This document shows, in pieces, positions 2,024-39,096 of a DNA stretch of 47,822 nucleotides (position 1 is its first letter; the number at the start of each line of letters is the position of its first letter). Source of the DNA: a virus; IMG/VR virus record IMGVR_UViG_3300050138_000170, positions 1 through 47,822 of that record. One strand, 5' to 3'. Below the pieces are notes generated by a model. The model was not told where the DNA came from, did no database searches, and saw nothing but the letters and a program-made list of their open reading frames with translations. The translations under genes and the position numbers were made by a program.

Positions 2024-3240
2024 TGGACCGCCAGCTAAAGCAGGCGGCTTTGCAAGTGCCAGGTAGGCTACGCGGCCCTGCGTTCGGCGGCATTACGTTC
2101 GCCCAGCCGAGCGATGTTCCCGGCTGCTGTGGTGTCGGACGCGCCAGCATGCGCGCAACTGATGCACACGAAACGGTCTCGCGTTGGGCGGTTCTTCCGG
2201 TCGATACAGCCGCAGGCCGGACAGGTCTGGGATGTATATCTCGGATCGACCGCGATCAACGGGACTCCAGCAAGTGCGGCTTTGTAGGTCAGAAACGATC
2301 GAAGTTGAGCGAACGACCAACTGGAATGCGCGCGGCGCTGTGGCTTACGAACCGTTATCCGATCGCGGATGCCTTTGAGATCTTCAACGGCGATACCGCG
2401 TCCGGTGTCTTTTGCCTTCCGCACGATGATCTTGCTGATACGATGGTTCACGTTCCGGGCGAACCCCGCTTCCTTGGCGCGACGGGCCTTAAGCAACCGC
2501 CTCGCCGATTTCGTTCCCTTCCGTTGGAGTTTGCGCCGAAGACGGGCGTGGCGCCGTCGCAGGCTGGCGTTGTGGGCACCACAGAACGTCTCGCCATCGC
2601 TGTCGGCCGCGATGTTTCGCAGCCCGAGATCGACGCCGAGGTATTCGGCCGGGTCTCCCATCGGCACGTCGCCAACGTCGACGGTCACGTAGAGGAAGAA
2701 CATGCCGTCGCGGTAGATCAGGTCCGCCTGCCCGCGCGCTCTCTCAAGCGTGGCGGTCTGGTACGCACCGCACACCCACGGCATGATTTGCCGGCCGTCG
2801 TTGGTCAGGATCGAGACCCGATCCGCGCCTTTCCACGACAGGATGCGTTGGTCATAGACGATGGCGCCGTGCGGCCGGAACGTCGGCTGGATGTCCTTAT
2901 CCCGCTTGTATGCCTCAACCACCTTGGCAATGGCGCGCACGGTCATCTGAGCGGCGAGGCCAAAGTCACGCCGGATGCCGTGGTAGGCGAGTTTCTGCAA
3001 TTCGAACTTGTTCGCGCATCGGTTGGCGAACGCGACCTCTGCCAAAGCGTCACACGCCGCGTTGAAACGCTCCATCGTCCGCAGCATGGCATCGGCCTGC
3101 GCGGGCAGCGGCAAGAGCTTCAATTGCATGGTCAGGTGCATGGGAAACTATATAACAAACGCTCAATAAGAAAGCAAGCCCTGTCGTGCTGCGCCCGACC
3201 CGCTATCTGTCGCCTGAAGACGACAGCTTCTCGCGGAGGG
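2024..3240 (-). mobile_element. IS200/IS605-type element carrying only tnpB (IS1341-like)
   Basis: The body is the minus-strand tnpB. The right-end side (2028-2047) forms a hairpin, CCGCC-a-GC TAAA GC-a-GGCGG. The left-end side (3207-3226) forms CTGTCG/CGACAG with a CCTGAAGA loop, and a similar structure precedes the second tnpB. No tnpA transposase is present, so the element could move only if helped in trans. Exact ends and target site cannot be fixed without an empty-site comparison. Confidence 0.65.
2068..3141 (-). CDS. tnpB: TnpB RNA-guided nuclease, OrfB family, 357 aa
   Basis: TnpB proteins are omega-RNA-guided DNA nucleases ancestral to Cas12. RuvC motifs look intact: the Asp of YLGVDLGLRN, the Glu of IAVEDLKG, and the Asp of ASDTTAAGNI. 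The TCPACG and FVCISC pairs form the zinc-binding insert. The family's usual HxRDxNAAxNI is altered to GASDTTAAGNI, but the acidic residue is kept. The omega RNA would be expected to overlap the 3' end and continue to about 2024, which would make phage sequence just below 2024 the resident guide. It lies antisense inside an otherwise plus-strand block. It is not closely similar to the second tnpB by eye. Confidence 0.92.
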   Translation of the reverse strand: MHLTMQLKLLPLPAQADAMLRTMERFNAACDALAEVAFANRCANKFELQKLAYHGIRRDFGLAAQMTVRAIAKVVEAYKRDKDIQPTFRPHGAIVYDQRILSWKGADRVSILTNDGRQIMPWVCGAYQTATLERARGQADLIYRDGMFFLYVTVDVGDVPMGDPAEYLGVDLGLRNIAADSDGETFCGAHNASLRRRHARLRRKLQRKGTKSARRLLKARRAKEAGFARNVNHRISKIIVRKAKDTGRGIAVEDLKGIRDRITVRKPQRRAHSSWSFAQLRSFLTYKAALAGVPLIAVDPRYTSQTCPACGCIDRKNRPTRDRFVCISCAHAGASDTTAAGNIARLGERNAAERRAA

Positions 3241-7158: not shown

Positions 7159-7333
7159 CGGTCTGGTTCTTTACTTCGACCAAACTTATTCGGAGCAGTG
7201 ACGCCATTTCCTCTAACATCTCAGCGCGAGCAATGAACAGATTTGCCTCACGCCGAAGTATCGTTGCCCTGCCCTCCAAATCAGCAGAAAACCTTTTCAG
7301 GTCATAATCACCCTTGAATTCATATCTGGGCAT
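7151..7333 (-). CDS. Hypothetical helical protein, 60 aa
   Basis: Start overlaps the stop of the large upstream gene by one base. The sequence after MPRYEFKGDYDLKRFSADLEGR is one long amphipathic helix, ATILRREANLFIARAEMLEE, likely a coiled-coil dimer. Tight packing in the operon supports it being real. Confidence 0.55.
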   Translation of the reverse strand: MPRYEFKGDYDLKRFSADLEGRATILRREANLFIARAEMLEEMASLLRISLVEVKNQTDG

Positions 7334-9291
7334 CAGGCATCGCCTTGCTGAATTTTGGCATCATCTTCGCGATGTTCTGTGGCCGCTTTGTGCGCCCTCA
7401 GTTTTTCCCGCTGTGCCATGAACGCGTCGCGCAGAGGCTCGATCATCGCGGCCTTGTTCGACCTGGTCATCCGCGAGGCAAACCCCTTCACGGCCATGCC
7501 ATTCTGGAATTCAACAAGCTGATCTTCCGATGTGCAGGACAGCATGTCAGCGATCAGGTTTTGTTGCGACCGGATATCATCGGCATCGCTCGGGCTTGCC
7601 GCGGCGGTCGGTGCGGGAGACACAGGATCCTGTGATGCGGGGGCAATCAACCCAAGTAATTCTGCTGGCGCATCAACCCCGAGCGTCTTGCACTGCTCCC
7701 GAACCGCCTTGATGCAGAGCGCGCGGAATGACGCCGGAATTTTTCGCAGCTCGGCCATATTCAGTGCGACAAAGTCCTGATAGGTGAGCAGAGTCAGCGC
7801 ATCGACCTCGACCTTGAATTCTTTCAGATGCAACGCGTTCATCTGTTTGCCGCGGTCCATCTTAACCTCAACCACGATCGCGCGGGGAGGGTCATAGGCC
7901 AGTATGCCGGCCTCTTCCACATGCTTGTGCTCGGGACCGACTGACATCAGACCATCCAGTAGATGGGAAGCCTCTATGCTCGCTCCTTTTGCGTCCTGAA
8001 TGCCATCCGCGTTCTGCTCCCAGAGCGCATCCCAATCGTCTAAATCAACCATTACTGCCTCGGTGAAGACTCTCACGAACACAAGCGGATCTGAGTAGAC
8101 AATGGGGCTCATCGGATCGCCGTTCCGATCAAGAAGCATCGCCTCGAACGCCGGGGCGGCGACCGCAGGTTCACGCTCAGCCTCGGCGCGCGACACAGGC
8201 GCGGTTGCCAGTGTGGAGTCTATTAGCGGCCTGCCGGCGGCCTCTCCCTCCCAACGATCGGTCGGAATTTCGTCCAGGTGGTCAGGTGCATCTTTCGATC
8301 GCTGGGCTGTCGCGCGGTCGCGGTCTTGTGCCTTCTGGACGTCGGCTGCGCTCGGCGCTACGGGCGATGCCGGCGCTTCCTTTGCGGCAGCTTTCCGCGT
8401 CGTCTGTCGCGGCTGCACTGCTGACGCCGTTGCCGCGGCGTGTTGCGTCTCGACGGCATTCCATGTCGCGCTGGCGCCAGTCTCCGGTTCAAACCAATCA
8501 GAGGCCGCGCTCATCTCATCCGTCAGAGACGCATAAATCTTGCTCAATTGCACAATGTGAGCCGGCCGGATCGCCTCCATGCGGCGTTGAATACGCTTCT
8601 CCAACATTTGGCGCGTCACGCCCATCCGATCGAATGCCTCGACCATTTTCAGTACCGCGTCCGGCGAGGTGTCTGCGTTGGCATGAATCGTGCGCTCGCA
8701 TTCCTGGATAGCCATCTCGATAACGTCGCCAGGGATCACGGCCAGAAGGACGGCGCGCTTGCGACGCTGGCCAAGATTGAAAATTATTTCGTAGATGTCG
8801 CGTTCTTCTTTGAGGGGATGACCTCCCTGTTTTGTGTCGCGCCAGTGGCGAACCTGGAACTGCCGTTCGTCGTAATACCCGGACTCCAGATCCCAGGCAT
8901 AGGCGACGCATTCTGAGTAGCTAGGTCCCCTGCTCAGTTCCTTAATCCCTGAGGCTAGATTCCCCCATCGTTGCGCGACCGCCTCGGCCAGGCGAATTGA
9001 CGGCCCGGTGATATCCTGGCCTCCGCGCGCGTAGCTGTAGAGCGCTTTGGCGGCCAAGCTCTCCCGCGCACAATCCCGGATGATCTGATCCACTGCCCGG
9101 CCAGGATCGCGTGGCATCTGCCGGGCCATGATCATGCGGGCCTGGACCTCGGCGATGGCCCTCTGCTGCTCCACGGATATCAGCCCTTGCCAGCTGCTTA
9201 CGGTGGCAAGTTCCTTCCCATTGCCAAACGGGTTTTTCCCGTCCTGGAAGGCTCTCAAGCGCGGGGCTTCGGGGCGTTCGACGTCACTCAT
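7333..9291 (-). CDS. Putative phage recombination-associated protein, 652 aa
   Basis: The first 270 residues match, from memory, a widespread phage family with the signature YARGGQDITGPSIRLAEAVAQRWGN and, later, KRIQRRMEAIRPAHIVQLSKIYASL. It is usually found with recombination genes and sometimes annotated as a single-strand annealing or RecT-like protein. An Ala-rich linker follows, then a second domain with DPPRAIVVEVKMDRGKQMN. The start at 9291 follows GGAG six bases upstream, just past the CRISPR array. Reading further upstream would translate CRISPR repeats and is rejected. Residues LLDRNGDP near 386-393 are encoded by DNA that nearly matches spacer 1 of the array. Confidence 0.6.
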   Translation of the reverse strand: MSDVERPEAPRLRAFQDGKNPFGNGKELATVSSWQGLISVEQQRAIAEVQARMIMARQMPRDPGRAVDQIIRDCARESLAAKALYSYARGGQDITGPSIRLAEAVAQRWGNLASGIKELSRGPSYSECVAYAWDLESGYYDERQFQVRHWRDTKQGGHPLKEERDIYEIIFNLGQRRKRAVLLAVIPGDVIEMAIQECERTIHANADTSPDAVLKMVEAFDRMGVTRQMLEKRIQRRMEAIRPAHIVQLSKIYASLTDEMSAASDWFEPETGASATWNAVETQHAAATASAVQPRQTTRKAAAKEAPASPVAPSAADVQKAQDRDRATAQRSKDAPDHLDEIPTDRWEGEAAGRPLIDSTLATAPVSRAEAEREPAVAAPAFEAMLLDRNGDPMSPIVYSDPLVFVRVFTEAVMVDLDDWDALWEQNADGIQDAKGASIEASHLLDGLMSVGPEHKHVEEAGILAYDPPRAIVVEVKMDRGKQMNALHLKEFKVEVDALTLLTYQDFVALNMAELRKIPASFRALCIKAVREQCKTLGVDAPAELLGLIAPASQDPVSPAPTAAASPSDADDIRSQQNLIADMLSCTSEDQLVEFQNGMAVKGFASRMTRSNKAAMIEPLRDAFMAQREKLRAHKAATEHREDDAKIQQGDA

Positions 9292-9321
9292 AGGGGTCTC
9301 CACGGTAATAGCGGTTTGGTT

Positions 9322-9533
9322 CGGTTCATCCCCGCGTGTGCGGGGAACGCTCGGAACCCGGATCTCCGTTCCGATCAAGAAGCGGTTCATCCCCGCGTGT
9401 GCGGGGAACGCCGGCATGGCAGGCCGGGCTCGATGGGGAGCTGCGGTTCATCCCCGCGTGTGCGGGGAACGCACTTCCGGCTGTTCCGGTTCGGCCTCTC
9501 CGAACGGTTCATCCCCGCACATGCGGGGAACGC
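9322..9533 (-). CRISPR. Type I-E mini-CRISPR array: 4 repeats, 3 spacers
   Basis: Repeats of 29 bp lie at 9322-9350, 9383-9411, 9444-9472 and 9505-9533; spacers of exactly 32 bp lie between them. The plus strand reads CGGTTCATCCCCGCG... to GCGGGGAACGC, the classic type I-E repeat, with palindrome CCCCGC/GCGGGG. The fourth repeat differs only in the loop (ACAT for GTGT). Comparison with the E. coli repeat puts crRNA on the minus strand, the same direction as the surrounding operon, with an ATGAACCG 5' handle. No cas genes or obvious leader are present. All spacers resemble genes of this phage: 1 the gene at 7333-9291, 2 the gene at 11328-11948, 3 the gene at 9448-9789. Host Cas proteins would be required. 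Confidence 0.95.
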
Positions 9534-9789
9534 CCATCTCGCAGGCGCGGGCGGTCGCATTGTCCGGCTCGGCCTCACCGAACATAAGCTCGGGATCCTC
9601 CTCCTCAATTTCTTCCAGCTTAAGTCCCTCTAAGAACGGAATGTCATGCTTCGATTCGACAAACCTCCTTTTCAGATCGCCGGCGTATTCAACCCGGCGG
9701 CTCCGGCGAGCAATTCCAACCATCTGATATGCGTCCTCGTCTGAGAGCGCCCACTGATTGTAACCGACGGTAATCACCAGCATTTTCAT
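9448..9789 (-). CDS. Hypothetical protein whose C-terminus runs into the CRISPR array, 113 aa
   Basis: Starts MKMLVITVGYNQWALSDEDAYQMVGIARRSRRVEY after AGGAGTGT. The first ~85 residues, ending EEEDPELMFGEAEPDNATA, look like genuine protein. The last ~28 codons are translated from CRISPR repeat and spacer DNA (MCGDEP, FGEAEPEQPEV, SPHTRG), and the stop lies in repeat 3. FGEAEPEQPEV, encoded by spacer 3, echoes the gene's own FGEAEPDNATA. The array therefore appears to have landed at or near the 3' end of this gene. Function unknown. Confidence 0.6.
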   Translation of the reverse strand: MKMLVITVGYNQWALSDEDAYQMVGIARRSRRVEYAGDLKRRFVESKHDIPFLEGLKLEEIEEEDPELMFGEAEPDNATARACEMGVPRMCGDEPFGEAEPEQPEVRSPHTRG

Positions 9790-9804
9790 TACACACTCCT
9801 GGGT

Positions 9805-10686
9805 TTAGACGCTGTGAACTTCCTTAATCACCACGCCGGGAACACTGCGCACTTTTTCCGATCTCACGGCGTATCCGATGCGCGACGCATTGAATTGCAG
9901 GTAAACCAGCAATCTCGGGTCTTTTGCCGCGGCTGCTACCAGATCGGCCAGCTCCGATTCATGTTCAATGAATTGCCACGTCGTGCGGCTACTCATCACG
10001 CCGCCGTAGACGCCATGCACACGGGTCCGATCGGCTGCCGGTGCGTTTACCGCCGCGTCGGCCTGCTCGGCCTCCTGATAGGCTGTGGCGGCTTTGTCGA
10101 GGGCTTCCGGATCGTCGGATGCCAGTGCCTCGGCTGCGGCAATCTCAGCGGCTGCGCGCTTGCGCTCGGCCTCCGCCTTCTCGTTCTGTAGTTTTTCGGC
10201 GTTGGACCAATCTGTGTACCAAGTGCCCCATTCGATAATGCGGTTGAGCGGGGCGGATGCTCCACGCTGGACCTTTCCTTTGGCATCGGTGACGACGATC
10301 TGGTCAATTAGCGCGTTTTTTGCCCCATCGATCGCCTTTGACGCGCGCAAAACGGGTTCCTTTTCGAGCACGTGCAACGACAGGATCGTTTTGTGAACCG
10401 ACCTGAAATCAGCCCGGATGTCGGCGAGCCGGCCGAGCAATTCGTCATCCCACAATTCCACGCCCTCCGGCTTCCCCCCAACGGTCGCCGGCTTTGTTAA
10501 GGGGTATTGCGCGAGGATGCTGTCGAGCTGCGCCGTCATCGCGACCACACGTTCTGCTGATGGCGCCAGCACGCGGCGCATGTGATTATCCCATCCATCA
10601 GGAGCCAGGACAATCGTTGGGCCTACAATTTCCTCCGGCGGATGGTTGTGTCCAGGGCCAGGAACATAGCGCCATTCTTCAATCAT
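9805..10686 (-). CDS. Hypothetical phage protein, 293 aa
   Basis: The start at 10686 gives MIEEWRYVPGPGHNHPPEE, an N-terminus typical of phage early proteins of unknown function; longer versions reading upstream overlap the next gene and look non-coding. The middle (residues ~150-215) is an Ala/Glu/Lys-rich helical stretch, probably coiled coil (EKAEAERKRAAAEIAAAEAL). The C-terminus has mixed strands. The operon position beside the recombination-type gene suggests DNA metabolism, but no motif proves it. Confidence 0.6.
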   Translation of the reverse strand: MIEEWRYVPGPGHNHPPEEIVGPTIVLAPDGWDNHMRRVLAPSAERVVAMTAQLDSILAQYPLTKPATVGGKPEGVELWDDELLGRLADIRADFRSVHKTILSLHVLEKEPVLRASKAIDGAKNALIDQIVVTDAKGKVQRGASAPLNRIIEWGTWYTDWSNAEKLQNEKAEAERKRAAAEIAAAEALASDDPEALDKAATAYQEAEQADAAVNAPAADRTRVHGVYGGVMSSRTTWQFIEHESELADLVAAAAKDPRLLVYLQFNASRIGYAVRSEKVRSVPGVVIKEVHSV

Positions 10687-11057
10687 CAAAAATCTTCGCT
10701 CCGCAACAATCGCGTGTTGATCGGCTGTGTCGGGTTTACTGACGGGTGGCCCGGCGAATGGATCTGGGCCCAATCGCGGATTGCGTTTCGATGCGCGTAG
10801 ACGGCCTCGGTGCATGGCTGGCCGTGGATCAGCAGTTGTGTGATCGGATCGTATCTGTCGCCGGTCAGCCACCCCGCGACACGTTCGTCCAGATCGTCCG
10901 GCGTCATCAACGGATACGCTGTACCGTCGACTTCGAACACGTAGCAGCCGTCCAAAACGTGAACGCACGCCGGGACTGGCCATCCGCGCGACCGGAGCCG
11001 CACGGTATACAGGCCAGGCTCGGGGCGGGAGGCGTTGCGGGGAGGGGGTTTGCTCAT
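10686..11057 (-). CDS. Hypothetical protein, 123 aa
   Basis: First gene of the minus-strand recombination operon. ATG 11057 (MSKPPPRNASRPEPG) was chosen over an upstream ATG that would sit in the divergent promoter region. Contains beta-rich segments GLYTVRLRSRGWPVPACVHVLDGCYVFEVDG. It shares one base with the next gene (TGATG). No family recognised. Confidence 0.55.
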   Translation of the reverse strand: MSKPPPRNASRPEPGLYTVRLRSRGWPVPACVHVLDGCYVFEVDGTAYPLMTPDDLDERVAGWLTGDRYDPITQLLIHGQPCTEAVYAHRNAIRDWAQIHSPGHPSVNPTQPINTRLLRSEDF

Positions 11058-11105
11058 GGGCCGAATATCCCCGCTATCGCTTCCGGTGTCAAGCACCGTC
11101 ACCAA

Positions 11106-11134
11106 TTGACAATGGCGGCATGACACTAGATTAT
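11106..11134 (+). promoter_or_regulatory. Candidate sigma70-type promoter for the replication block
   Basis: TTGACA (11106-11111) is a perfect -35 box, 17 bases before GATTAT (11129-11134). The predicted transcript would start at about 11141, exactly at an ATG, implying leaderless translation of the first gene. It lies between the divergent gene starts at 11057 and 11141. Confidence 0.5.
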
Positions 11135-11140
11135 ATCCCT

Positions 11141-11452
11141 ATGGCCGACAAACCTAAACGCAAGGGAACTGCCTTTTGGTTTCCTGACAGCCTGGGAGGC
11201 TTGCTACACGCGGTCGCTCACGCTGAAGATCGCACGTTGCCGACAGTTCTGGCGCGCGCGCTTCAGATCTACGCTTCGACGAGTCCGGAATATCAGAATG
11301 CACTCTCACTCTCACAGGAATCCAAAGATGGCGAAATCAGCACCGAAGAAAGCAGCGGATCAGACCTCCCCGGCAAAGCCGCGCGGGCGCCCTCCGGGAT
11401 CGAAAAACCAAAGTGTGTACGCGGGTCCTTTGGCTTCCGCGCCAGAAACTAA
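11141..11452 (+). CDS. Hypothetical small protein, possible DNA-binding, 103 aa
   Basis: Begins MADKPKRKGTAFWFPDSLGG, then LLHAVAHAEDRTLPTVLARALQIYA. The strand-helix-helix impression recalls ribbon-helix-helix proteins, but this is weak. The last ~40 codons overlap the next gene in another frame and may not be conserved. ATG 11120 is possible but would lie inside the promoter spacer, so 11141 is preferred. Confidence 0.45.
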   Translation: MADKPKRKGTAFWFPDSLGGLLHAVAHAEDRTLPTVLARALQIYASTSPEYQNALSLSQESKDGEISTEESSGSDLPGKAARAPSGIEKPKCVRGSFGFRARN

Positions 11453-11948
11453 TGGACCGAGCGACGACGACATAAAGGGATGGCTCGCTGAGGCCACCGA
11501 GATCGAGACCGCGATGGCACGCGTTCGCCAAAAAATGTCCACGCTCAAAAAGGACGTAGAGGGCGGCGCGGGCGACTGGAAAGCGCTGAAGGCCGCGCTC
11601 GCCAGCACGAAACTTTCCAAGGCCGAGGCGATAGCCAATCTCGAAGCCGCCGTCCGTTACCACAAGGCAATAAGTGTCCGCGTGTCGTTCGACCCGGACG
11701 GACAGGGTACATTTGCCGATCTCGTTGAGGAGACGGTGAACGGGTTCTCTGGCGCAGTCGATGAAAAGCTGTCCGCCGCACGGGCAAAAAGCGACGGCTT
11801 CAATTCGAGTCGCCTGGGTGGGACACGCGAGGATAATCCGTTCAATCCTGGCTCCTTGGAATACGCGGCATGGCAGGAAGGACTGGATCAGGAGGTCCGC
11901 GATCGCGGCACGACGATCTTAGCCGAGACCGGCGAAGTCATTCACTGA
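11328..11948 (+). CDS. Hypothetical helical phage protein, 206 aa
   Basis: ATG 11328 follows AGGAA by about eight bases. The N-terminus is Lys/Pro-rich (MAKSAPKKAADQTSPAKPRGRPPG) with an AT-hook-like KPRGRPPG, followed by a charged helical body. Residues about 180-189, AWQEGLDQEV, are encoded by 11866-11897, which matches spacer 2 of the CRISPR array at 24 of 32 bases; the spacer would encode AWQAGLDGEL. No enzymatic motif is visible. It is followed within 20 bases by the resolvase gene. Confidence 0.6.
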   Translation: MAKSAPKKAADQTSPAKPRGRPPGSKNQSVYAGPLASAPETNGPSDDDIKGWLAEATEIETAMARVRQKMSTLKKDVEGGAGDWKALKAALASTKLSKAEAIANLEAAVRYHKAISVRVSFDPDGQGTFADLVEETVNGFSGAVDEKLSAARAKSDGFNSSRLGGTREDNPFNPGSLEYAAWQEGLDQEVRDRGTTILAETGEVIH

Positions 11949-19447: not shown

Positions 19448-19603
19448 ATGGTGCCAAAAGAGATGGAGCTTTCCGTTCTGCTTCTCGTGGAGGCTCTAAA
19501 GGCAATAGCGCGTGGCCGGAGAGACAACGGTCGTCCCCTCTCGGGGGAGGATAGCCGTCAGACCGCCCGAAAGGCTCTCGTCGAATGCGGGCTTGATTGG
19601 TAA
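19448..19603 (+). CDS. Hypothetical protein, 51 aa
   Basis: MVPKEMELSVLLLVEALKAIARGRRDNGRPLSGEDSRQ. AGAAGGG precedes ATG 19448 by eight bases; ATG 19418 upstream gives 61 residues. Its stop overlaps the next start (TAATG). No family recognised. Confidence 0.45.
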   Translation: MVPKEMELSVLLLVEALKAIARGRRDNGRPLSGEDSRQTARKALVECGLDW

Positions 19604-19839
19604 TGGTCGCGCCAGTTGTCGGACATGGGATCTGCGCTTTCTGCGGTGGACCGGTCGATCACCGAAAAGGGCTGGACCCAACCGTTTCCTGCTCCAAATC
19701 TTGCCAGGTCAGGCTTTGGAAGTGCGCGCATCCCGCAGTGAATCGCGAAATACAGAACCGCTATCGGCGCAGAAAGCGGCTCCGTCGAAGCCTCTACAAG
19801 CTCGCCACAGCCGCGCTGGAAATCAGACAGGAGGAATAA
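19603..19839 (+). CDS. Small zinc-binding-type protein, 78 aa
   Basis: GICAFCGGPVDHRKGLDPTVSCSKSCQVRLWKC has two CxxC-like pairs separated by about 18 residues, a treble-clef or zinc-ribbon pattern. A very basic helix follows (NREIQNRYRRRKRLRRSLYK), suggesting nucleic-acid binding. ATG 19603 overlaps the previous stop. Confidence 0.6.
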   Translation: MVAPVVGHGICAFCGGPVDHRKGLDPTVSCSKSCQVRLWKCAHPAVNREIQNRYRRRKRLRRSLYKLATAALEIRQEE

Positions 19840-19843
19840 CGCC

Positions 19844-20023
19844 ATGCGTACCCCGATAAACCTGTTTCCCATGGGAATGCCGTACCACGACCGCCGCACG
19901 GCGTGGGAAGACCGCACGTCCCGGTACCATTGGCGGCGAGGGTTTATCTGTGGGGTCGTCAGTTCGGCCGGAGCGCTTTTCTTTGGTGGGCTCCTCGGCT
20001 GTATATTCGCGTATCTGGCGTGA
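19844..20023 (+). CDS. Small membrane protein, 59 aa (cassette copy 1)
   Basis: Strong AGGAGG site at 19829-19834. The N-terminus MRTPINLFPMGMPYHDRRTAW is unique to this copy. From RTSRYHWRRG onward it is identical to the gene at 20303, with a membrane helix FICGVVSSAGALFFGGLLGCIFAYLA preceded by basic residues. Its stop overlaps the next GTG start. It is one half of a duplicated two-gene cassette. Confidence 0.7.
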   Translation: MRTPINLFPMGMPYHDRRTAWEDRTSRYHWRRGFICGVVSSAGALFFGGLLGCIFAYLA

Positions 20024-20130
20024 AAGCTCCACCGCCGCCCGGTCGCCTGGACTCGTACCATGACGCGGTCGAGCTGGCGCGCCGCGGCATCGGTCTGTTT
20101 GCTCAATCAGCACTGAAGGAAATCACGTAA
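20020..20130 (+). CDS. Small protein, 36 aa (cassette copy 1)
   Basis: GTG 20020 overlaps the previous stop (GTGA). The first 18 codons (VKAPPPPGRLDSYHDAVE) match the gene at 20527; after that the two diverge. This version ends with LARRGIGLFAQSALKEIT and has no membrane segment, so it is probably a shortened copy. Its stop overlaps the next ATG. Confidence 0.5.
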   Translation: MKAPPPPGRLDSYHDAVELARRGIGLFAQSALKEIT

Positions 20131-20306
20131 TGAAAGTCGTAACAAACTTCTGGCTCAAGCCCGTACCTTCCCGCCGCTTCGATTGGTCCGCCATCGATGA
20201 CGATACCTACGATGGAGCGCCTGACTCCCGCTGTCCAGTTGGATACGGCAAGACCGAGGAAGATGCCATCGCGGACCTGATGCAACAGATTGAGGATGTG
20301 GCATGA
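20130..20306 (+). CDS. Hypothetical protein, 58 aa
   Basis: ATG overlaps the previous stop and its own stop overlaps the next ATG. MKVVTNFWLKPVPSRRFDWSAIDDDTYDG, then GYGKTEEDAIADLMQQIEDV, an acidic helix commonly seen in small phage proteins. Lies between the two repeat copies, so it is unduplicated. Confidence 0.6.
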   Translation: MKVVTNFWLKPVPSRRFDWSAIDDDTYDGAPDSRCPVGYGKTEEDAIADLMQQIEDVA

Positions 20307-20530
20307 TGCAAAACAGTCGAGACATGCTGCGCCGGCTTGTGGACGTTGCCTGGCAGGCGGCGACACAATCCACCGAGGTTCCATCAACGAGATTGGCTGA
20401 CAAGATGATCAACCAGGCCCGCACGTCCCGGTACCATTGGCGGCGAGGGTTTATCTGTGGGGTCGTCAGTTCGGCCGGAGCGCTTTTCTTTGGTGGGCTC
20501 CTCGGCTGTATATTCGCGTATCTGGCGTGA
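20303..20530 (+). CDS. Small membrane protein, 75 aa (cassette copy 2)
   Basis: MMQNSRDMLRRLVDVAWQAATQSTEVPSTRLADK is a helical N-terminus different from copy 1; the shared part begins at ARTSRYHWRRG and includes the membrane helix. The shared C-terminus with an unlike N-terminus indicates domain replacement through the repeat. Confidence 0.7.
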   Translation: MMQNSRDMLRRLVDVAWQAATQSTEVPSTRLADKMINQARTSRYHWRRGFICGVVSSAGALFFGGLLGCIFAYLA

Positions 20531-20703
20531 AAGCTCCACCGCCGCCGGGTCGCCTGGACTCGTACCATGACGCGGTCGAGCGCGCGCGGCACGATTTCGA
20601 GATGTACCGCCAGAGGCGCAGGATACGTAATCGGCTCATAATCGTGCTGGCGATATGGTTTACGGTCATTGGAGCGCTGGCCTTCTTTACGCTCGGCGGG
20701 TGA
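20527..20703 (+). CDS. Small membrane protein, 58 aa (cassette copy 2)
   Basis: GTG 20527 overlaps the previous stop. VKAPPPPGRLDSYHDAVE matches copy 1; then ERARHDFEMYRQRRRIRN leads to a membrane helix LIIVLAIWFTVIGALAFFTLGG. The stop TGA at 20701-20703 is also the first bases of the second TnpB element (TGAACTACTCC), so the native gene may have been longer. Confidence 0.65.
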   Translation: MKAPPPPGRLDSYHDAVERARHDFEMYRQRRRIRNRLIIVLAIWFTVIGALAFFTLGG

Positions 20704-21985
20704 ACTACTCCCCCCTAAAGGACGGAGCTTCCAGCTTCAACGGGAACTGCCTTGGACCGAGGATTCCGCCTCGGTTTAGGACTAACGTTCCCTCCACTAG
20801 CAGCAACGGCAGTTCCTGCCGCCAATATCCGCAGACCTTCGGCGCGGATGTTCTTCGCCGCGTTGATGTCTCGGTCGTGGTGCGCATCACAATGAGCGCA
20901 CGTCCATGTCCGAACATCGAGCGGCATCTTGTCGCAGATCGAACCGCATTCGGAGCACGCCTTGGAACTCGGATACCAGCGGCTGCATTTGATGAACGCC
21001 TTACCGGCGCGTGCGGCCTTGTATTCGATGAAGCCCATCAGCATGCCCCATCCCGCGTCAGCCGTGGCTTTCGCGAGACAGTGGTTCGCCATGATCCCCT
21101 TCACATTCAGATCCTCGACCACGATGACTTGATTTTCGCTTACGAGCCGATGACTGAGTTTGTGAAGATGGTCGCGTCTGGCGCACGCAACACGCTCATG
21201 CGTTCGCGCTACCAGTTGCCGGGCTTTGTTCCGGCGGTTCGATCCTTTCTTCTTGCGGGAGAGCGTCCGCTGTTTGCGCTTCAGGTTTTTCTCCGCCTTG
21301 CGCAAGTGGCGGGGGTTCTCGAACTTCGATCCGTCGCTGGTGATGGCGAGGTGCGTCAGCCCAACATCGATGCCGATGGCCTTTCCGTCCGTCGAAACGG
21401 CGGGCAACGGCTCACCATTGTCGGTCAGGATAGCGGCATGGAATTGCCCGCACGCATTGCGGCTGACCGTCACGGTTTTGAATTTGCCAACGATCTCGCG
21501 ATGCACGACGCACTTCACCCAGCCAACCTTCGGCAGATAGATGCTGGCACCTTCGATTTTCACTCGTTGCGGATATTGGATCGACTGGCGCCCATGTTTG
21601 GACTTGAAGCGGGGGTATCTGCCGCGCCTGGCAAAGAAATTCTCGAACGCCCGCGACAGGTTTTGCAAAGACGCCTGCAACGCCTGGCTGTCCGCGTCAC
21701 CAAGCCACTCGAACTCCTGTTTCAGCTTCGGAAGCCGGATCGCCATCGAGTGATAGTTCAGCCCCTTGCCCGTGGTACGATAGAGATCACCCGTCAGGGC
21801 GAGTGCGTTGTTCCACGCCCACCGCGCACAACCGAACTGAACGGCCAAAGAATGGGCCTGTTCATCGGTAGGATAGAGGCGGATTCGGGTTGCGCTGAGC
21901 ATCAGTTAGATATATACCTCCGAAGTCTAAGAAGCAAGGGGCCTTATATCCCCGCCCTGAACGGCGGGGTTTTACGGCTTAAGAG
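20702..21985 (-). mobile_element. Second IS200/IS605-type element carrying only tnpB
   Basis: On the minus strand the right end reads ...GGGGGGAGTAGTTCA, the usual closing of IS605-type elements, with an imperfect CTCC...CGGAG hairpin at 20709-20730. The left end holds CCCCGCC (21950-21956) paired with GGCGGGG (21963-21969). No tnpA. The phage sequence immediately below 20702 would be the resident guide of its omega RNA. Exact ends need an empty-site comparison. Confidence 0.75.
20715..21902 (-). CDS. tnpB: TnpB RNA-guided nuclease, 395 aa
   Basis: Full-length OrfB: N-terminal FGCARWAWNNALAL, the RuvC I Asp in AIGIDVGLTHLA, the Glu of VVEDLNVKG, the zinc ribbon CSECG/CAHC, and the RuvC III Asp in HHDRDINAAKNI. 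A basic, helical KAEKNLKRKQRTLSRKKKG segment follows the first RuvC motif. All catalytic residues appear intact. Clearly a different lineage from the tnpB at 2068, so two independent insertions. Confidence 0.95.
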   Translation of the reverse strand: MLSATRIRLYPTDEQAHSLAVQFGCARWAWNNALALTGDLYRTTGKGLNYHSMAIRLPKLKQEFEWLGDADSQALQASLQNLSRAFENFFARRGRYPRFKSKHGRQSIQYPQRVKIEGASIYLPKVGWVKCVVHREIVGKFKTVTVSRNACGQFHAAILTDNGEPLPAVSTDGKAIGIDVGLTHLAITSDGSKFENPRHLRKAEKNLKRKQRTLSRKKKGSNRRNKARQLVARTHERVACARRDHLHKLSHRLVSENQVIVVEDLNVKGIMANHCLAKATADAGWGMLMGFIEYKAARAGKAFIKCSRWYPSSKACSECGSICDKMPLDVRTWTCAHCDAHHDRDINAAKNIRAEGLRILAAGTAVAASGGNVSPKPRRNPRSKAVPVEAGSSVL

Positions 21986-35664: not shown

Positions 35665-38600
35665 ATGAGTGCCACGCTCGCCCCACCGCCGCCGCCGAAC
35701 GGCATATCCTCTATCGCGGCCCTCGCCGGCGGGACCGGTGCGTCCCCGCCCATCTCCTCTGAGCCTGATGATCATCCCAATCCAGAGTTACGCGATCAAC
35801 TGACGCGCTGGGTTGGCATGAAGAACATCGCGGCCGATCCCGACGACAATATGGAACCGAACCCGGAGATCGGTGACGATATCGCGCGCATCGCGGCCCG
35901 GGTGCGCTCTGACTATGACATCGACGAACTGAGCCGGGCCGACTGGCGCGAGAAATATCGCAAGTGGCTGGACTGCGCTTTGCAGGTCACTGAGCACAAA
36001 ACCTATCCATGGCCTGAGGCGTGCTTTTCACTCGATACCGATGTTCTGACCGATTCGGGTTGGAAGCCAGTCGCCGAGATCGCCATCGGTGAAAGGGTCC
36101 TCAGTCGCGCGCCATCCGGTGCCGCGGCATTCTATCCGGTGACCGAGCGCCATCGGTTCACGGCTCTGTCAATGGTGCATTTCACCGGTAAGAGCATCGA
36201 CCTGATGGTGACGCCGAACCACAGGATGTTGGTCGAGAGCAAGTTCGGCAAGCGGAAGAAGCAGCATTTCATCGAGGCGGGGCGGTTCTTGGAGGAGCGT
36301 CTGGCATTTCGATACATCCCGCTTACGTCGCAGTGGACGGGCGACCCCCTGTCGGAGATCCATGGGGTAAGTGCGGAGGCGTACGCGCGATTCCTGGGTT
36401 GGTACATCTCCGAGGGCTCGGCCTTCACTGGACACAATACCCACACATTGAAGGATGGAACTTTCAGGGATTATGGAAAGAGTCCGAGCAGCTTCGCTAT
36501 CGCGCAGAGCCAGACCGCCAACCCCGTAAAGTTCGAACGCCTTCGGCACGACATCGAAGCCTGTAGGTTCACCTGTAAAGCCACGCCCACCGGTTACATC
36601 GTTCATGCCAGGTCGATGCCCAATGCTGCGAAAGACGAACTTAGATCGCTTGGTTTATCACACCAGAAACATGTGCCTGATTACCTGCTGACAGCGTCCG
36701 TTCCGGTACTCAAGGCCCTCCTTGATGGCCTGATGGCCGGTGATGGCTGCATTCGGGAACGCAATGGAAAGGAGGAAAGCTGGTCCTATTCTACTGTTTC
36801 CCGCCGGTTGTCCGACCAGATGCAGGACATATGTCAGAAGATTGGCTGGCGCGCGACCGTGGCGGAAAGAGCGGCGGTCGTCGGAGGGGTAATCAACGGG
36901 CGGCAAATCACCGGGGCTCAAACTTGCTACCTGATCGCGATCAACCGCAAGTCCCGTATCCAGGTCGTTAAAATGGACCGGCAAGCGGTCTTTGGACCAT
37001 GCGAGGTCGCCTGCGTCACCGTCGAACCGCACCACACACTCTATGTGCGCCGCAACGGCAAAGCCCTCTGGTGCGGCAACTCCAATGTCATATATCCGCT
37101 GATGACGACGGCGGCCATCCAATTTGCCGCCCGCGCTTACCCGGCGATCATCCGAGATCGCAACGTCGTCAAGGGCACCGTCATTGGCGACGACAAAGGC
37201 GTGATCAATCCGGCGTTTGTGCATCTGCTACAAGCCGCGCACGCGCATGATCAGGCGATGGCGCAGCAGCAACAGCAGGGAGGGCAGCCACCGCCGGGCG
37301 GCCCGCCTCCTGGCGCTCAACCCCCAGGCCCTGGTCCTATGCAGCAGTCAGGACCGGCCGCGTCGCCTCAGCCGGGTCCCGGAATGCCGCCGCCAGGACA
37401 GGCCGGCCCCGGTATGGGGCTCCCGGCGGGGATGCCGCGGCAGTGGCTGGAAGAGCCCGGGGCAAAGCAAAAGCGAGCGCTCCGCATCGGCCGGCACATG
37501 AGCTGGCAGCTTCTGTTCGAACAAGAGGAATGGGAACCGCAGACCGACACGCTTCTGGTGGCACTCCCGATCGTCGGCACGTATTTCCGCAAGTCCTACT
37601 ACGATCAAAGCCTCGGCCGGAACGTGAGCGAGACTGTCGACGCACTGGCGCTATGCGTGAATTATTACGCCAAGAGCTTTGAGACATCGCCTCGAAAAAC
37701 AGAGTCGATCCGGATGTACCCGGACGAAATCGAGACAGCGATCCGCTCCGGTCTGTTCATTGATTGGGACGGTGACGGTGCGCTGGCCTATGGCCATGAC
37801 AGCGGCGTCACCATGGAGGACGAGAAGCGGCGCGATCCCAATAGCCAGCAGGACGAGGACGCGGCGGTCACCTTCCTGGAACAGCATCGGCGCTGGGATC
37901 TGGATGGCGATGGCTATCCCGAGCCGTACATCATCACCGTGGCGCGCGACAGCGGCAAACTCGCGCGCATCGTCGCCGGCTTCGAAATGGATGGGGTGCA
38001 TTTCAACCGGAAGGGCCAGGTTCGGAAAATCGACGTCGTCGCTGTCTATACGAAATACGGGTTCATCCCGAACCCCGACTCCAAGGTCTACGATCTTGGC
38101 TTCGGGCATCTCCTGTTTCCGATCAACGAAGCGGTGAACACCACCATAAATATGATGATCGACTCCGGGCACCTTCAGATCGTCGGCGGCGGTTTCATCG
38201 GGTCCGGGCTGTCGATCAATACCGGCACGGTCCGGTTCACCCATGGCGAGTACAAGCCGGTCAACACGTTCGGCGGGAACATCCGCGACAACATTTACCA
38301 GATACCGTTCCCTGGCCCCAACCCGATCCTGATGCAGTTGCTGCAATTCCTGATCGAATCTGGCGAACGTGTCGCCTCCGTGAAGGACGTCATGGTCGGC
38401 GACATGCCGGGCGACAACACCTCAGGCATCACGACGCTGGCAGTGATCGAGCAGGGCCTGAAGGTGTTCTCCGCGATCTACAAGCGGATCCACCGCTCGC
38501 TCGGCTACGAGTTCAAAAAACAATACCAGCTGAACCGAAAGTATAGCCGTAAGGAATCGCAGTACCAGGAAGGCGGCGACTGGAAGACGATCACCAGGGA

Positions 38601-39096
38601 AGATTACGAAAAAGGCGCCGGCGTCGAGCCGATCAGTGATCCGCAGATGGTTACCGACATGCAACGCCTCGGCAGGGCACAGTTCCTGCTGACCTTCAAG
38701 GATGATCCTCGCGTCAAGGGGGAGAAAATCATTCTCGACGCGTTCACCGCGGCGATGATCCCGGACGCTGAAAGCTACATGACAGAGGCGCCGGCGCAGC
38801 CTGATCCAAAGATTCTGCTGAAAAGCCGCGAGCTGGATATCCGCGAGAAACGGGAGATGATCGAACTGATGTTGCGCCACGAACATGACAAGGCGCTGAT
38901 CATCGGGGAGATATGCAAGGCCGAATTGGCGTTGGCTCAGGCGAGGAAGCTTGACAATGACGCGCAACTGGGGTGGGTGGAGCAACATATTGAACACCTG
39001 AAAGCACAGGTCGATGCCATTGCCACCCTATCGCCCCCGCCAGCCGGTCCCACCGCCGATGCCGGGGGAGGAGCGAGTCCCCCCGCTTCTCCGTGA
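35665..39096 (+). CDS. Portal protein with in-frame intein, 1143 aa precursor
   Basis: The dodecameric portal is the DNA channel of the capsid. Without the intein the protein is about 790 residues. The flanking extein KTYPWPEA/SNVIYPLMTTAAIQFAARAYPAI matches the conserved PWPGASNVKYPL-type portal motif of this group. A long Pro/Gln/Gly insertion (AMAQQQQQGGQPPPGGPPPG...) at residues ~530-590 is unusual. Later motifs FGHLLFPINEAVNTTINMMIDSGHLQIVGGG and MPGDNTSGITTLAVIEQGLKVFSAIYKRI fit the same portal type. The C-terminus overlaps the next gene by about 80 bases. Confidence 0.85.
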   Translation: MSATLAPPPPPNGISSIAALAGGTGASPPISSEPDDHPNPELRDQLTRWVGMKNIAADPDDNMEPNPEIGDDIARIAARVRSDYDIDELSRADWREKYRKWLDCALQVTEHKTYPWPEACFSLDTDVLTDSGWKPVAEIAIGERVLSRAPSGAAAFYPVTERHRFTALSMVHFTGKSIDLMVTPNHRMLVESKFGKRKKQHFIEAGRFLEERLAFRYIPLTSQWTGDPLSEIHGVSAEAYARFLGWYISEGSAFTGHNTHTLKDGTFRDYGKSPSSFAIAQSQTANPVKFERLRHDIEACRFTCKATPTGYIVHARSMPNAAKDELRSLGLSHQKHVPDYLLTASVPVLKALLDGLMAGDGCIRERNGKEESWSYSTVSRRLSDQMQDICQKIGWRATVAERAAVVGGVINGRQITGAQTCYLIAINRKSRIQVVKMDRQAVFGPCEVACVTVEPHHTLYVRRNGKALWCGNSNVIYPLMTTAAIQFAARAYPAIIRDRNVVKGTVIGDDKGVINPAFVHLLQAAHAHDQAMAQQQQQGGQPPPGGPPPGAQPPGPGPMQQSGPAASPQPGPGMPPPGQAGPGMGLPAGMPRQWLEEPGAKQKRALRIGRHMSWQLLFEQEEWEPQTDTLLVALPIVGTYFRKSYYDQSLGRNVSETVDALALCVNYYAKSFETSPRKTESIRMYPDEIETAIRSGLFIDWDGDGALAYGHDSGVTMEDEKRRDPNSQQDEDAAVTFLEQHRRWDLDGDGYPEPYIITVARDSGKLARIVAGFEMDGVHFNRKGQVRKIDVVAVYTKYGFIPNPDSKVYDLGFGHLLFPINEAVNTTINMMIDSGHLQIVGGGFIGSGLSINTGTVRFTHGEYKPVNTFGGNIRDNIYQIPFPGPNPILMQLLQFLIESGERVASVKDVMVGDMPGDNTSGITTLAVIEQGLKVFSAIYKRIHRSLGYEFKKQYQLNRKYSRKESQYQEGGDWKTITREDYEKGAGVEPISDPQMVTDMQRLGRAQFLLTFKDDPRVKGEKIILDAFTAAMIPDAESYMTEAPAQPDPKILLKSRELDIREKREMIELMLRHEHDKALIIGEICKAELALAQARKLDNDAQLGWVEQHIEHLKAQVDAIATLSPPPAGPTADAGGGASPPASP
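36022..37080 (+). other. Intein, 353 aa, with LAGLIDADG endonuclease
   Basis: Begins CFSLDTDVLTDSGWKPVAEI (Cys1), has TPNHRML (block B) at intein residues 64-70, FLGWYISEG (LAGLIDADG helix 1) at 124-132, ALLDGLMAGDG (helix 2) at 232-242, and ends VEPHHTLYVRRNGKALWCGN before Ser. The penultimate residue is Gly rather than the usual His. Inserted at the conserved portal motif, which gives a target that competitors must keep. Splicing is expected but not shown. Confidence 0.85.

Follow-up and report, generated by a model that had tools for sequence, protein, structure and literature searches.

A leaderless type I-E mini-array in a tailed phage, with spacers resembling other alleles of the genes beside it

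Why should a phage carry a CRISPR array with a spacer that partly matches a gene of its own genome? This question is raised by the IMG/VR record IMGVR_UViG_3300050138_000170 (G000), which we refer to as the window, meaning the whole stretch of 47,822 bases that was analyzed. A preliminary description of this DNA had noted the match of one spacer (S1); the two other spacers, S2 and S3, were found to match genes beside the array as well.

The phage and its array

The phage is represented by a second record (G011, 58,285 bases), as the parts shared with the window are 99.98-100% identical. G011 contains ~19 kb of extra sequence located between the end and the start of the window; since it bridges both ends, the window probably represents most of a ~67 kb genome. 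Genes for a terminase, a portal protein with an intein-like insert, a replicative helicase, and a resolvase characterize it as a tailed phage, the portal gene being presumably identified by gene order. The array is present in G011 too, with 100% identity around it, and its occurrence in a second contig with identical flanks argues that it is not the chimera of one assembly. It is composed as follows, together with a possible promoter:

9322-9533, crRNA sense on the minus strand: CRISPR array of four 29-nt repeats and three 32-nt spacers
9322..9350, minus strand: repeat R1, last in the crRNA direction, GCGTTCCCCGCACACGCGGGGATGAACCG in crRNA sense
9351..9382, minus strand: spacer S1, CTTCTTGATCGGAACGGAGATCCGGGTTCCGA in crRNA sense, translated as LLDRNGDPGS in frame with the homologous gene
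9383..9411, minus strand: repeat R2
9412..9443, minus strand: spacer S2, whose complement encodes AWQAGLDGEL (own version AWQEGLDQEV)
9444..9472, minus strand: repeat R3
9473..9504, minus strand: spacer S3, encoding FGEAEPEQPE (own version FGEAEPDNAT)
9505..9533, minus strand: repeat R4, with ATGT for ACAC in the 4-nt loop as the only difference
11064..11092, minus strand, directed towards the array: sigma-70-like promoter of the leftward operon (10/12, a consensus match only)

The form is that of type I-E: folding of the 29-nt repeat yielded a hairpin with a 7-bp stem (z = -3.2), the spacers comprise 32 nt, and ATG is present as PAM for S1 and S3 but not for S2. In R4, the stem remains intact because the repeat differs exclusively in the loop. 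The PAM set of the E. coli type I-E system consists of AAG, ATG, AGG, and GAG adjoining the seed. With four repeats, three spacers, and phage genes on both sides, the locus shows the geometry of a virus-borne mini-array. The genes on either side of it are both on the minus strand, and the array is read in the same direction as they are. No leader was seen; coding sequence is located upstream in crRNA sense, unlike the sequence preceding the array of Acidocella. No terminator-like site was found in 9150-11250. Open frames crossing the array are mechanical and are not to be taken as genes.

Searching for the machinery, we detected no Cse2 in record G000 and no other cas genes among the proteins scanned in the window, ~19 kb of the phage being located outside of it. 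The exact repeat occurs in 21 genome stretches, with chromosomal arrays of Acidocella, Humitalea, Hyphomicrobiales, and other bacteria among them, and is spread over several bacterial classes. The cse2 gene was found in seven out of eight host genomes with the exact repeat or one differing in a single base; in Acidocella, cse2 and the array are on one contig, ~4 kb apart. Among 479 host spacers from 19 loci, none was convincingly directed against this phage. As a separate observation, a solitary copy of the repeat is present in a 16.8 kb viral contig (L004, 6937-6965) and represents a candidate RNA anti-CRISPR.

The spacers and the neighboring genes

The genes that resemble the spacers and the respective sites within them are arranged around the array:

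7333..9291, minus strand: gene 1 (652 aa), target of S1, starting just after the array
8105..8136, minus strand: own copy of the S1 target, 24/32, with an ATG PAM at 8137-8139
9534..9789, minus strand: gene 2, a small ORF, target of S3, ending at or in the array, its frame continuing into the repeats
9551..9582, minus strand: own copy of the S3 target, 22/32 with 18 of the first 20, ATG PAM, ~18 bp from the array
11298..11948, plus strand: gene 3 (216 aa), target of S2, with a homologue in the distant relative G410 (48% over 192 aa)
11866..11897, minus strand: own copy of the S2 target, 24/32, with GCG and thus no canonical PAM, seed mismatched

Aligned with 8105-8136, S1 is matched at crRNA positions 1-17, 19-24, and 30 and mismatched at 18, 25-29, 31, and 32. 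The match of 23 out of 24 bases at 8113-8136 reported before was confirmed, including the exact identity of the first 17 crRNA positions, as was the crRNA orientation with the crRNA sense on the minus strand; the sequence likewise contains the ATG PAM that had been placed next to the seed. The identical block (8113-8137 and 9359-9383, 96%) extends to 25 bp, since the G of ATG is in turn matched by the repeat's final G. At position 18, GGC in the gene is replaced by GGA in the spacer, both encoding glycine; the gene encodes the peptide LLDRNGDPMS and the spacer LLDRNGDPGS. Thus, the change described as silent is silent at this position; over all seven spacer/self pairs identified in this study, by contrast, mismatches were not significantly enriched in third positions (20/51, p = 0.23). 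The suggestion that a mismatch at position 18 may be tolerated holds, as positions 6, 12, 18, 24, and 30 present no mismatch barrier (PMC9718816). The mismatches at 25-29 and 31-32, on the other hand, argue against the phage's own gene as the target proper; the target is probably the allele of a relative.

To evaluate chance similarity, we used 300 shuffles and, as controls, 544 spacers taken from other arrays. The S1 score of 19/20 over the first 20 positions was reached by 0/544 controls and 0/300 shuffles, and its local score was equalled by none of either set, with or without the PAM, whereas the overall 24/32 was reached by a single one of the 544 control spacers. In a translated test across the whole window, none of 477 controls reached S1. 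For S3, the score of the first 20 positions plus PAM was equalled by 0/544 controls anywhere in the window. The 24/32 of S2, whose gene is 2.4 kb from the array, was reached by 1/544 controls genome-wide and by 0/544 within 3 kb. The translated test was weaker for both (S2, 19/477 controls; S3, not significant); the case for these two spacers consequently relies on nucleotide, PAM, and proximity evidence, and S2 alone would not convince.

In all three cases, the orthologous site of the phage itself is altered, with 8, 8, and 10 mismatches for S1, S2, and S3, respectively. Based on the pairs of spacer and own peptides as well as on homologous peptides of G410, S1-S3 have the appearance of fragments from other alleles of the genes surrounding the array: G410 contains FEAFVLDENGDP and EYVAWHDGRDE at places homologous to the spacer peptides, the former within a C-terminal homologue of gene 1. 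Among 395 genomes of the Acidocella order, gene 1 yielded only distant N-terminal matches. The case for its earlier designation as a recombination-type gene is weak: one distant phage homologue is annotated as putative RecT, no family was assigned in Pfam or NCBIfam, and the N-terminal region corresponds to PHROG 3657, for which the function is unknown. Gene 2 has no family match in Pfam, NCBIfam, or PHROGs.

A full match to S1 was not present in IMG/VR, phage records, plasmid records, or 385 alphaproteobacterial genomes, nor was one to S2 or S3 in IMG/VR, the only collection searched with these two. Hence, the better full-length match elsewhere that the preliminary description had named as its possible refutation did not appear for S1 in the IMG/VR, phage, and plasmid records. 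A pattern of the S1 seed and adjoining positions matched exclusively this phage in IMG/VR, the best plasmid and phage-record matches had a coverage of ≤81% with E values of 0.7-0.9, and the genomes contained a single match (L111) with two mismatches in a 23-mer. A candidate target of S2 (L077) was rejected as a chance match of the degenerate pattern in an unrelated gene.

Comparable loci in other phages

Scanning IMG/VR for I-E-like repeats resulted in 54 stretches, several of which contain spacers resembling their own phage. In L003, the self-like site (26/32, AAG) is located ~70 bp from the array. The spacer of L025 matches at 31/32 positions, with one silent change and ACG replacing the PAM, in a dCMP-deaminase-like gene adjoining the array, and that of L027 matches at 24/32 in a gene ending 11 bp before the array. 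A weaker case is L055 (22/32, ATG, ~30 bp from the array). Altogether, the self-like target is ~20-650 bp from the array in the window, L003, L025, and L027. Spacers of L002 showed no self match, the signal of L022 derives from an odd 34-nt spacer, and the one of L041 was discarded, as it probably stems from a portion of the L041 array left unmasked.

The locus of L003 could be compared with two relatives, L129 and L130, which are 93% and 89% identical there. Both are devoid of the array, the sequence being continuous where L003 has ~100 extra bases, and no L003-type repeats were detected in the stretch compared. The spacer target is present in L129 with 31/32 and in L130 with 30/32 matches, both with AAG, compared to 26/32 for L003's own copy, which carries four clustered PAM-distal changes. 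The alignment of 485 columns contains 17 changes specific to L003, four of which fall within the final five bases of the protospacer; by permutation, an equally tight cluster at any place has p = 0.002. Consequently, the carrier possesses an altered target beside the array, whereas the relatives possess the target and an empty site. A copy of TCTACTTC is located at either end of the extra ~100 bases, both in direct orientation. At the insertion (L003, 920-1055), there is also a longer but imperfect similarity (CATG...TCTACTTC); together, these might hint at how the array was inserted. For the loci of L025 and L055, relatives in phage records showed only capsid-gene similarity or none, and thus no empty site was obtained. 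For the window, too, the comparison with G011 and G410 yielded no close relative devoid of the array.

Two further observations were made on such arrays. In both this phage (9448-9789) and L055 (6820-7644), the small gene that is targeted has an open frame continuing past the border of the array, as though its 3' end had been replaced or extended by array sequence. In L012, the family of which also includes L014, L017, L030, and L031, one spacer of a several-spacer array (2602-2634) is an exact copy of the region of ribosome-binding site and start codon of another gene on this contig, where TGA takes the place of the PAM; self-regulation or self-tolerance through PAM loss are possible explanations.

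Possible function and relation to known systems

We propose, with a probability of about 0.82, that the phage carries a cas-less type I-E mini-array which employs Cascade and Cas3 of the host against related phages and spares its carrier. What follows on transcription, processing, interference, and the rivals is inferred: the array would be transcribed together with the flanking genes of the early operon, host Cas6e would cut the hairpin repeats to give three crRNAs, and with these, host Cascade and Cas3 would destroy co-infecting or superinfecting relatives with matching alleles. The carrier itself, we infer, would survive as its own alleles have diverged. At the own S1 site, an R-loop of ~24 bp may form; however, it should not lock due to the mismatches at 25-29 and 31-32, as six PAM-distal mismatches prevent R-loop locking in vitro (PMC9718816), so that, judged by E. 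coli-type data, S1 should spare its own site through the loss of locking. The proposal is based on the anatomy of the array, the absence of Cse2, the identity of the repeat with host I-E repeats, the non-chance similarity of the spacers, and the relatives of L003. Arguing against it are the missing full targets of S1-S3 in the records searched, the lack of a PAM and the mismatched seed in the case of S2, the low agreement of S3 (22/32), the lack of third-position enrichment among the mismatches, and the spread of the repeat over several bacterial classes. Moreover, primed adaptation of the host can be set off by partial matches, as discussed in PMC7099407; for the carrier, this is a possible cost.

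Two additions to interviral targeting might explain why the arrays adjoin the genes they resemble. For the first, selection for linkage without any homing, we see an even chance. Recombinants combining the array with a sensitive allele would kill themselves, and only tightly linked arrays would persist; this accounts for the adjacency and the altered own alleles in the window and L003, yet is silent on how the array came to adjoin the gene. The second, which appears rather unlikely, is that the array is a mobile cassette spreading by CRISPR-guided homing. The host effector would break the rival near the empty site, and repair would copy the array together with the resistant allele from the carrier. 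In intronless homing, or marker exclusion, by free-standing phage homing endonucleases, the determinant adjoins the attacked gene, the resident allele is immune by sequence divergence, and related phages have an empty site. The distance of ~20-650 bp in the four phages above and the clean empty site in two relatives of L003 next to an altered resident target correspond to this anatomy. Mini-arrays might thus, as a tentative idea, be RNA-guided counterparts of such endonucleases, which insert beside the gene they attack, render the resident immune by changing a small PAM-distal block, with PAM and seed retained and R-loop locking abolished, and are driven with the immune allele into co-infecting relatives by host Cascade/Cas3. 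In contrast to intronless homing, a guide RNA and host Cascade/Cas3 would act here in place of an encoded nuclease, and gene conversion is only putative. Furthermore, Cas3 degradation is processive and leaves no clean break, and the same adjacency is expected from plain linkage selection. Both additions fit, and the present data do not separate them.

Autoregulation, in which Cascade would bind the partially matching sites in the absence of Cas3 and repress the phage's own genes in the manner of crRNA-like regulators, is improbable. The own S1 and S3 sites do retain ATG as PAM, their first 20 positions are nearly intact, and Cascade still samples locking-deficient targets (PMC9718816); the own S2 site, however, lacks PAM and seed, and the relatives of L003 fit the spacer better than the carrier does. 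Even less probable is a decoy or Racr-like RNA anti-CRISPR, whose repeats would sequester host Cas proteins with the spacers being irrelevant. Phage repeats mimicking host repeats can inhibit, as outlined in PMC10651486, and L004 contains the identical repeat as a solitary copy. Here, in place of the solitary repeat unit of Racr, four regularly spaced repeats are present in a full array geometry, with three 32-nt spacers far from random with respect to neighboring genes. That S1 matches by chance, or that host DNA was misassembled into the phage, is hardly credible despite the 8/32 differing bases and the lack of a full target in the searched records, as the 544 control spacers and the shuffles rule out a chance match and the identical array and flanks occur in a second record.

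Interviral mini-arrays as such are already known (Medvedeva 2019, and Faure 2019 cited therein); new here is the three-spacer type I-E locus. The portogloboviruses SPV1 and SPV2 of Saccharolobus carry mini-CRISPR arrays against close relatives, with their own sites altered (PMC6858448). The phage described here shares with them a short and, here, apparently cas-less array, host-type repeats, altered own orthologous sites, and targets near the array. SPV1 and SPV2, however, are archaeal and non-lytic with host-like leaders and 100% matched targets (PMC6858448), whereas the present array is of the bacterial type I-E with three spacers, no leader was seen, and no full-match target phage was found. 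The mini-arrays of phages and prophages reported by Faure et al. (2019), according to PMC6858448, PMC7099407, and PMC11656645, resemble it in their host-identical repeats, the absence of a leader, and spacers directed, here probably, against adjacent genes of related viruses and not of the carrier. By these descriptions, they usually contain one or two spacers, compared to three here, all presumably against genes within 2.4 kb, and the comparison of empty site and altered allele in L003 goes beyond them. With RNA anti-CRISPRs and solitary repeat units, as presented in PMC10651486, the locus has in common that phage DNA carries host CRISPR repeats; those are single inhibiting repeats according to this source, in contrast to a real array with target-like spacers.

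For Medvedeva et al., it was unclear how mini-array and target came to be so close to each other and what results from it (PMC6858448). Such proximity is now seen in several bacterial phages that are unrelated and have repeats of type I-E, and for L003, array-free relatives, empty site, and changed resident target can be aligned base by base. With such an alignment, two questions can be put directly to the test in laboratory strains of E. coli, whose I-E system is well studied: whether linkage or homing applies, and why self-escape falls PAM-distal rather than in the PAM or seed.

Further features of the phage were noticed apart from the array. The portal-like gene (35665-39096) is split by an intein-like insert, with weak matches to intein-bearing models at 326-469. 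Two genes for TnpB-family RNA-guided nucleases are present at 2068-3141 and 20715-21902, the product of the latter exceeding the NCBIfam cut-off of guided_TnpB. Finally, according to the ORF list, 19558-20106 and 20155-20592 are near-duplicate stretches with similar products (RVMVRVQATGRRWSFHARYANIQPRSPP...).
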